Assembly (NCBI RefSeq): GCF_040448675.1
Contig: NZ_CP159289.1
Location: 1,426,001-1,490,000, forward strand
DNA: 64,000 nt
Direction: 5' to 3'
From: Dyadobacter sp. 676
Lineage (GTDB): Bacteria > Bacteroidota > Bacteroidia > Cytophagales > Spirosomataceae
The notes beneath the pieces are model-generated. The model was not told the origin of the DNA. It made no database searches and worked only from the letters and a program-made list of their open reading frames with translations. Both the position numbers and the translations under genes were made by a program. Positions 17,538 to 19,323 of this stretch are shown piece by piece (within the stretch, counting starts at the first letter, position 1; each line of letters begins with the position of its first letter).

Positions 17538-17891
17538 ATGACATTCGAACAATTTCAGGAATCGCTTGCACTCTCTTCGCCGCCCAAAGGCCTTCCGATA
17601 TTGCTGGAAGCGCTCTGGCACGATGCCAAAGGAAATTGGGAAGCGGCCCATAATATTGCCCAAAGCAGGGAGGGGACGCAACCTTACGACCGTTTGCACG
17701 CCTACCTGCACCGGGTAGAGGGCGATGCTTTTAATGCCGGATACTGGTACCGGCGTGCTGGTTCGGAGGTATTTAAGGGTAGCCTGAAAGAAGAATGGGC
17801 TCATCTGGCCAATCTGTTCCTCCAAAAGCATAAGGCTTTTTACTTATACTCCGACAATATAAGGTTTTTAACTTATATGATTAAAATATAA
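17538..17891 (+). CDS. Hypothetical small protein, 3' end inside the operator array
   Basis: About 117 residues from ATG 17538 (MTFEQFQESL); the in-frame ATG at 17511 is less likely. The body (FEQFQ, LEALWHDAKGNWEAAHNIAQ, LHRVEGDAFNAGYWYRRAG) is the kind of short helical protein often found in Bacteroidota genomes and has no assigned function. Its last 20 or so codons (HKAFYLYSDNIRFLTYMIKI) are encoded by operator copies A and B and part of C, and the stop TAA lies in copy C. The natural C-terminus was probably near NLFLQKH and was extended or replaced when the operator array arose. Same strand as the satD-like operon downstream. Confidence 0.7.
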   Translation: MTFEQFQESLALSSPPKGLPILLEALWHDAKGNWEAAHNIAQSREGTQPYDRLHAYLHRVEGDAFNAGYWYRRAGSEVFKGSLKEEWAHLANLFLQKHKAFYLYSDNIRFLTYMIKI

Positions 17892-17934
17892 GGCTTTTAC
17901 CTTATATTCGCCCGTTATAAGTAAAAAGCCTTAT
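17830..17934. promoter_or_regulatory. Array of four 19-bp operator-like dyads in front of the satD-like gene
   Basis: Copies: A 17830-17848 ATAAGGCTTTTTACTTATA; B 17859-17877 ATAAGGTTTTTAACTTATA; C 17888-17906 ATAAGGCTTTTACCTTATA; D 17916-17934, inverted, whose reverse complement is identical to A. Start-to-start spacing is 29, 29 and 28 bp. Each is an imperfect dyad (ATAAGG, six bases, NCTTAT; copy C is a perfect ATAAGG/CCTTAT dyad). Copy D ends 4 bases before ATG 17939, so a bound protein would cover the translation start and probably the promoter. The array is best read as a binding site for a multimeric repressor, most simply the HTH-containing SatD-like protein itself. Confidence 0.8.
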
Positions 17935-17938
17935 GCTT

Positions 17939-18562
17939 ATGAAAGCTGTCATTACTGCCGATATGGTAAACTACACGCAATTTCCGCGTGAAGAAACAGC
18001 CTTATGGCTGGAAGAAATGCTTGCAGTTTTGCACCAGAACCAAGACTTTAAATGGGCATTAAAACCCGAAATGTACCGCGGCGACAGCTTTCAGGCGGTA
18101 TTGAAGAATACGGATGAGGCAATGCGCCTGGCTATTCTCGCCCGCGTATGCATCCGTAAACACGCCCCTAACGCCGACATGCGCATTGCCATCGGTATCG
18201 GAAAAACCGAACAACTTACCGACCGCCCCGGCACATCCGATGGCGAAGCATTCAGGTTATCAGGACATCTGGCGGATAAGATCCGTCAGCAGAAAGCACG
18301 GATCGGGATTGCACTGCCCAAACCATCGGAACCGCTATCGGCCACGCTCGACCTCCTGGAAACCATTATCGAAGACTGGACCCTGGCACAAAGCCAGGTG
18401 ATCGAGGCCTTGCTGCAAGGCAGGAATATCACTCAAATCGCAGAGGCATTGTCGATCAGCCAACCGGCGGCAAGCCAACGGGTTGCCGCTTCCAAATGGT
18501 GGGCAATTGAAAGTTTTCTTGCTACCTTTCCAAAGCAGTTGTCACTATACACTAAACGCTAA
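17939..18562 (+). CDS. SatD family protein with C-terminal helix-turn-helix
   Basis: About 207 residues. The N-terminal 150 residues resemble the SatD family, named from the Streptococcus mutans acid-tolerance locus. Seen directly is a pattern like a class III nucleotidyl cyclase or palm domain: a first strand with Asp (MKAVITADMVNYTQF, Asp8), a second acidic hairpin (MYRGDSFQAVL) and MRIAIGIGKTEQL followed by GEAFRLSGHLADKI. The C-terminal 50 residues contain a helix-turn-helix (ITQIAEALSISQPAASQRV). This suggests a DNA-binding sensor. ATG 17933 is an alternative start. It is followed after 5 bases by the DUF3307 membrane gene. Autoregulation through the array upstream is inferred. Catalytic activity is not shown. 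Confidence 0.75.
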   Translation: MKAVITADMVNYTQFPREETALWLEEMLAVLHQNQDFKWALKPEMYRGDSFQAVLKNTDEAMRLAILARVCIRKHAPNADMRIAIGIGKTEQLTDRPGTSDGEAFRLSGHLADKIRQQKARIGIALPKPSEPLSATLDLLETIIEDWTLAQSQVIEALLQGRNITQIAEALSISQPAASQRVAASKWWAIESFLATFPKQLSLYTKR

Positions 18563-18567
18563 CGCTT

Positions 18568-19323
18568 ATGAGAGAATTTCTGCTCCTTCTCCTGGCACAC
18601 GTTCTTGTAGATTTTTACTGGCAACCTACCTCGTGGGTAGCCGACAAAAGGGAGAAAAAATACAAATCCCGCTATCTTTACTTACACGTATTACTGGTAA
18701 TCATTGTATCCTATATCACCCTCCACGCGTGGAAAAATCCGCTACCAGCCATTGCGGTGGGGATTGCACACGGCGTCATTGATCTTGTAAAAATATCATT
18801 TGACAAAAAAGGCTCCCTGACCTGGTTCGTCGTCGATCAGGTTGCTCATCTGGTCACCATTGCGCTTACGGCACTCATTCTCACGAGCAATATCGGGCCT
18901 GGTTTTGAAATACTGGCCGCCTGGCTCAACACCCCTAAAACCCTCGCGACACTGTCGGGCGCACTGCTTTCGCTCTCGCCTATCTCGTTTCTCGTAGGTA
19001 TCCTGACCAGGCCCTGGCGGGAAGAACTTGCCAAACTGGCCCCCGAGGCAGATGATAACCTCGCCAATGCCGGCCGTTGGATAGGTATGTCCGAGCGGTT
19101 GCTCATTTTTGTCTTTGTGCTGGTGAACCAGTATTCCGCCATAGGCTTCCTGATTGCCGCCAAGTCGCTTCTAAGATACAATGACAAAGCAACCGATGCA
19201 GGCATTCCGCCTGCCTATATCAGCAAAAAATCGGAATATGTACTCGTCGGGACTTTGATGAGCTACACCTGTGCCATTGCCATTGCGCTGGCCGTCAGGA
19301 TACTCAGCCAAAAATTTAAATAA
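18568..19323 (+). CDS. DUF3307 family integral membrane protein
   Basis: 251-residue membrane protein starting MREFLLLLLAHVLVDFYWQP. The early HxxxDFxxQ pattern is typical of DUF3307 proteins, as is the second His/Asp segment (GIAHGVIDLVKISFDKK) and a third (FVVDQVAHLVTIAL). About six to seven membrane helices alternate with short loops; conserved His and Asp lie in or near the first three. The function is unknown. Pairing with a SatD-like gene upstream (5-base gap) points to a functional unit in which the cytosolic SatD-HTH protein controls or senses the membrane partner. Confidence 0.8.
   Translation: MREFLLLLLAHVLVDFYWQPTSWVADKREKKYKSRYLYLHVLLVIIVSYITLHAWKNPLPAIAVGIAHGVIDLVKISFDKKGSLTWFVVDQVAHLVTIALTALILTSNIGPGFEILAAWLNTPKTLATLSGALLSLSPISFLVGILTRPWREELAKLAPEADDNLANAGRWIGMSERLLIFVFVLVNQYSAIGFLIAAKSLLRYNDKATDAGIPPAYISKKSEYVLVGTLMSYTCAIAIALAVRILSQKFK

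Follow-up and report, generated by a model that had tools for sequence, protein, structure and literature searches.

The window analysed here, a stretch of 64,000 nucleotides from Dyadobacter sp. 676, contains on its forward strand a presumed operon of two genes. The first, a SatD-family gene (17939..18562), encodes a protein of 207 residues, and the second, a DUF3307 gene (18568..19323), encodes a predicted all-helical membrane protein, which matches PF11750 (DUF3307) with 93.5 bits at a cut-off of 23. A small gene (17538..17891, forward strand) lies upstream of satD, and its reading frame crosses dyads A and B of the array described below; in relatives, unlike in the window, the corresponding small gene stops before or in the array. 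The assignment of the first gene to SatD, made in the preliminary description, is supported by its homologs: neither a comparison of the window protein with Pfam nor profile searches of its own genome and of 14 control genomes yielded a match to SatD (PF16264); however, Dyadobacter homologs with 89% identity to the window protein carry precomputed PF16264 assignments, and seven of ten distant homologs match the profile, six of them above the cut-off and over nearly the whole length.

The AlphaFold model of the window protein (mean pLDDT 89.8) consists of a palm domain followed by a helix-turn-helix (HTH), in agreement with the HTH that had been described earlier and with weak HTH profile matches. 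The palm domain (17939..18367, forward strand, codons 1-143) is predicted to adopt the fold of class III nucleotidyl cyclases and GGDEF domains; in a fold search, residues 1-148 resemble adenylyl cyclases and GGDEF domains. Among 23 diverse SatD sequences, Asp8 (17960 in the window) is nearly invariant and Asp49 (18083) is invariant, and both may correspond to the metal-binding aspartate pair of cyclases, judging by motif and strand order alone. The predicted recognition helix of the HTH is encoded at 18461..18490 (forward strand, residues 175-184) and includes residue 180 (codon 18476-18478). PADLOC models gave weak HTH matches only, and a fold search with DUF3307 returned nothing at E 0.001 or better.

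A DUF3307 domain was found in 70 of the 75 downstream proteins scanned, including that of the window, and thus at 70 of all 80 loci; three loci without a downstream open reading frame and two with an unlike one were left out of the scan. The satD-DUF3307 pair also occurs on small mobilizable and conjugative plasmids, namely pEC34A of Escherichia coli (L288) and a plasmid of Vibrio lentus (L289), and on two alphaproteobacterial plasmids (L290 and L291), satD is followed by genes for small unnamed proteins, none of which is annotated as DUF3307. A tblastn search of 50,697 phage records with SatD and DUF3307 gave no match, and no SatD relative was confirmed on viral contigs. The accessible part of one report mentions a DUF3307 entry in a jumbo phage (PMC8504454), so that carriage by phages is possible.

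A tandem array of dyads upstream of satD

Four copies of a 19-bp motif had been reported in front of satD, and these were recovered at positions 17830, 17859 and 17888 on the forward strand and at 17916 on the reverse strand. When up to three mismatches are allowed, the window contains exactly four copies, compared with 0.06 expected, and none of 100 shuffled sequences reaches four; the array is real and not a product of chance. The true unit is an 18-bp dyad, ATAAG-N8-CTTAT, in which two 5-bp arms flank an 8-bp spacer, and neighboring units are separated by linkers of 11 bp. The units, to which no strand is assigned, are dyad A (17830..17847), whose outer flank base departs from T, dyad B (17859..17876), dyad C (17888..17905) and dyad D (17917..17934), in which the spacer runs in the opposite sense. 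The spacing of 29, 29 and 28 bp given in the preliminary description holds for the 19-bp copies, but reads 29, 29 and 29 bp in the register of the 18-bp dyads. Likewise, the fourth copy, which corresponds to dyad D, is inverted at 17916, but in the dyad register this inversion is a mere effect of the asymmetric 8-bp spacer. One arm was correctly said to end four bases before the start codon: this is the distance from dyad D to the start at 17939, which is the start common to relatives, while an alternative in-frame ATG at 17933 falls within dyad D. The array cannot be called phased, since 29 bp correspond to 2.76 turns at 10.5 bp per turn and the sites are out of helical phase; binding with same-face stacking is thus not implied.

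A genome-wide search for the motif, which had been proposed as a check, found the array at a single locus rather than a scattered repeat: in the 7.28-Mb genome, only these four places match the 19-bp motif with zero or one mismatch. With two to three mismatches, seven further places appear, compared with 34 for a backward-read control pattern at equal laxity. As the genome contains one strong array and just five other single dyads (up to one mismatch), the regulon of SatD probably consists of the satD-DUF3307 operon itself.

Co-occurrence of the array and satD in Dyadobacter

In an initial search of 59 relatives, satD was detected in 30, every one a member of the genus Dyadobacter, and dyads are present upstream of satD at all 30 loci. 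A regular chain of three to five units at 29 bp is found at 29 of them, L034 being the irregular one, and L010 has a single 30-bp step. In a survey of 48 Dyadobacter genomes, satD and DUF3307 were each detected in 39, and a two-unit pattern (up to two mismatches) in 40, whereas the backward control was found in one. The array is present in all 39 genomes with satD; eight of the nine genomes lacking satD have none and the ninth has a two-unit remnant. In the 29 of the 40 pattern-positive genomes for which the places are listed, all lie at satD and nowhere else.

The nine satD-less genomes still possess the small gene that is normally found upstream. In six of them, both flanking genes adjoin; the gap is about 310 bp wide in genome G016 and about 90-100 bp in the other five. 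Apart from G016, a single isolated weak dyad match was found in the satD-less genomes, and it lies within a coding region. The array thus travels together with the satD-DUF3307 genes in Dyadobacter, as it is present with satD and, except for the remnant in G016, gone where satD is gone. G016 lacks satD and DUF3307 and has retained two decayed units at the old place (L101, G016:C1:222073-222119), a deletion scar.

The geometry of the array is conserved beyond the genus

The preliminary description had stated that absence of the motif upstream of orthologous operons would speak against its model. Outside the genus the exact letters are indeed not kept, but the geometry is, and such a test would therefore have been misleading. 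An unsupervised scan of 30 loci at the family level (29 from other genera and one from Dyadobacter) revealed 29 bp as the outstanding period, and 28 and 29 bp stand alone among periods of 20-49 bp in a scan of a class-level set of 49 satD loci, which derive from 43 of 197 genera searched. A third set comprises 46 loci, 43 named ones and three plasmid loci; the three sets overlap in part, for instance in L171 and L283, and G084, G380 and eight short partial hits were excluded from the family and class sets. A strict test, which demands 5-8-5 dyads that recur with a period of 28 or 29 bp, is passed upstream of satD by 27 of 30, 44 of 49 and 40 of 46 loci, respectively, compared with 0, 0 and 0 for windows 700 bp downstream and at most 3, 5 and 4 for dinucleotide shuffles. 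A looser count, which accepted any two dyads spaced by 28-30 bp (46 of 49 and 43 of 46 loci), was dropped, as shuffled sequences reach up to 19-21.

Loci that pass the strict test include those of ANME-type archaea (L257, L259, L260 and L263), an Omnitrophus, an anammox planctomycete and a Vibrio plasmid, and the geometry is also present in Sphingomonas and on two haloarchaeal plasmids. By the same test, the 5-8-5 geometry was not found at L140, L141, L155, L158, L160, L181, L205, L206, L252, L265, L268, L279, L287 and L288; loci that fail include two of Acetothermia, a Segatella plasmid, the E. coli plasmid pEC34A and two methanogens. The array geometry is also absent from the Agrobacterium locus L291. 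The longest chains seen upstream of satD comprise at least eight units at 28 bp (L196) and nine units at 29 bp (L167). On the haloarchaeal plasmids (L292 and L293), SatD-DUF3307 genes are accompanied by dyads of the TTCGC-N8-GCGAA type that form two pairs, with a spacing of 29 bp within each pair and a different distance between the pairs.

Mapped on a tree, the pitch has changed at least 8 times and the letters at least 31 times, with 23 different half-sites. Protein columns that follow the difference between the 28-bp and the 29-bp pitch are mostly located in the palm domain (53, 112, 113, 13 and 135); since the pitch is a clade trait and hence confounded, this tracking is no evidence of mechanism and these columns were set aside as an explanation of the pitch.

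Half-site letters covary with the recognition helix

Among 63 dereplicated loci, the distance between half-sites covaries with that of the recognition-helix region after whole-protein distance has been taken into account (best partial r 0.28, windows covering residues 166-198), a value that is reached in none of 1000 permutations. The palm domain shows no significant covariation with half-site distance (best partial r 0.15, 95% limit 0.20). Nine unclear loci, dropped by name, and loci with one unit or low uniformity were removed before these counts; the array finder allowed only pitches near 28-30 bp, and the spacing tally of the retained loci is therefore partly built in.

Across 78 loci, no other protein column is as informative on half-site position 5 as residue 180. 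K180 goes with C at this position at 12 of 12 retained loci (Fisher 1e-10), or 12 of 13 when counted strictly, as six loci of ambiguous register were dropped and one of these, L288, has K180. Q180 goes with G at position 5 at 28 of 32 loci, and G, E, D or A at residue 180 with CG at half-site positions 3-4 at 14 of 17 loci, compared with 2 of 61 others. K180 changes seven times on the palm-domain tree; a phylogenetic pair test offers only three to four independent pairs on supported branches, too few to reach significance (sign test, median p 0.5), with a mean of 2.3 of 3 pairs as expected and none, or a rare one, in the opposite direction. From these sequence comparisons, it appears that a putative DNA-reading code of SatD can partly be deduced from residue 180.

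A probable autoregulatory operator and its alternatives

The array most probably represents an autoregulatory operator of satD-DUF3307, at which tandem SatD dimers would cover the promoter and repress the operon; we assign this reading a probability of about 0.82. Autoregulation, which the preliminary description had regarded as the simplest model, draws support from the co-occurrence of array and genes, the lone array in the genome and the covariation of half-site and recognition helix, and further from a promoter-like box that lies inside the dyads in many relatives and is not intact in the window. The anatomy, the conserved geometry, the co-occurrence and the covariation are established by computation, and from them we infer DNA binding by SatD, a dimer on each dyad, cooperativity, repression and a ligand. 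One SatD dimer would bind each 18-bp dyad via the C-terminal HTH, with one recognition helix per 5-bp half-site, and protein-protein contacts between adjacent dimers would fix the pitch at 28 or 29 bp. As this pitch corresponds to a non-integral 2.67 or 2.76 turns at 10.5 bp per turn, each dimer would be rotated by about one third or one quarter of a turn, and successive dimers would wind round the helix. Two to nine dimers could form a cooperative array wound round the DNA over the promoter, thereby blocking transcription, and the dimers on the last units would lie on the promoter itself. The cyclase/GGDEF-like domain at the N-terminus would presumably serve for dimerisation and, by sensing or turning over a nucleotide or metal, set the level of repression.

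The consensus of the -7 element of Bacteroidota promoters is TAnnTTTG. In the window, a putative promoter box, TATATTCG (17903..17910, forward strand), departs from it by one base and lies at offset 15 of dyad C, where relatives possess an intact TAnnTTTG. Among 29 Dyadobacter loci, 21 have the box overlapping a dyad, with a single fixed offset in 16, but such an overlap is seen at only 12 of 28 family loci and 10 of 45 class loci. SatD might also act on the array as an activator or switch, a clearly unlikely reading with which the position of some dyads upstream of the promoter-like box would agree; repression is favored because a dyad overlaps or follows the box at 21 of 29 regular Dyadobacter loci. 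Less probable still is control of satD by another, host-encoded regulator that binds the array. Array and regulator can be separate in other systems, but here the letters shift with SatD residue 180 in lineage after lineage and the array vanishes along with satD.

It is very improbable that the array is a transcribed RNA element, such as leader hairpins, an attenuator or a bidirectional terminator. The 136-nt RNA does fold far better than shuffled sequences (z -9.3), but this fold requires pairing of A with D, which is no constant among relatives. In a tally of units selected for five of seven complementary pairs, the fraction of units with complementary bases is 0.99-1.00 for each of the outer five pairs in Dyadobacter (107 units) and 0.85-0.98 elsewhere (223 units), and it falls at the sixth pair to 0.37 and 0.42, respectively; the central spacer lacks complementarity, with values of 0.05-0.43 for pairs 6-9 in Dyadobacter, and mismatches in the arms show no preference for G-U (GT 26, AC 25, other 50). 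Since TAnnTTTG lies upstream of the last dyad at 20 of 29 regular Dyadobacter loci, most units would escape transcription, and an RNA element would leave the covariation with the HTH unexplained. Rfam offered only miRNA families far below gathering scores, and these sub-threshold matches were taken for palindrome artefacts. Despite the regular repeat-spacer appearance, a plain dispersed repeat, insertion element end or CRISPR-like array located here by chance has next to no probability, as the array occupies a single locus per genome, at satD wherever the places are listed, combines lineage-specific letters with a conserved pitch, and is refuted as a plain repeat for the genus by the two-unit survey (40 of 48 genomes, control 1 of 48).

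Beyond the autoregulatory operator, it is tempting to speculate that SatD acts as a repressor that reads or makes a nucleotide and covers its own promoter with a helical filament of fixed pitch, and that DUF3307 is a harmful effector, the pair being a guard-type stress or defense module; we consider this tentative and on balance unlikely. According to this idea, which follows a Panoptes-like logic, the membrane protein DUF3307 would harm the cell once SatD or its nucleotide fails, and the module would have spread through bacteria and archaea with a DNA code readable from residue 180. Transposon studies of Streptococcus pyogenes, as far as the accessible part of the source goes, found satD to be essential, yet present in only 178 of 249 genomes (PMC11323703); essentiality of an accessory gene would fit a repressor of, or an antidote to, a harmful partner.

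Comparison with known systems

The analysis provides a first concrete starting point for a widely spread and uncharacterised gene pair, in the form of a regulator and an operator, both predicted, and of a candidate protein-DNA code. The pitch that is held while the letters drift offers an unusual natural series, in which protein contacts would preserve the geometry of the operator as its specificity evolves. Should the palm domain bind a nucleotide, the pair would be a candidate signaling or defense module.

The locus resembles the SatD (PF16264)/DUF3307 (PF11750) pair in that homologs of the first protein match PF16264 and the next gene PF11750, and differs in that the window protein itself is below the reach of Pfam. 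Our search, which was confined to the open literature, brought up no description of an operator, of DNA binding or of a function for satD-DUF3307. Toxin-antitoxin systems such as HigBA and AbiE have autoregulated operators, and they share with satD-DUF3307 a short two-gene operon, a first product that binds or, in SatD, is predicted to bind DNA, palindromes over the own promoter, a patchy presence and plasmid copies; in contrast, satD has two to nine dyads at a pitch kept over phyla and a cyclase-like, presumably sensory domain. The transcription factor BldD of Streptomyces, according to the accessible part of the source, requires a cyclic dinucleotide in order to dimerise (PMC4151990); there, the nucleotide is the ligand of an unrelated domain, whereas in SatD the palm fold would be part of the protein itself. 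Class III adenylyl cyclases, GGDEF domains and mCpol (Panoptes OptS) share 8-19% identity with the SatD palm, and SatD differs from them by the HTH fused behind it.
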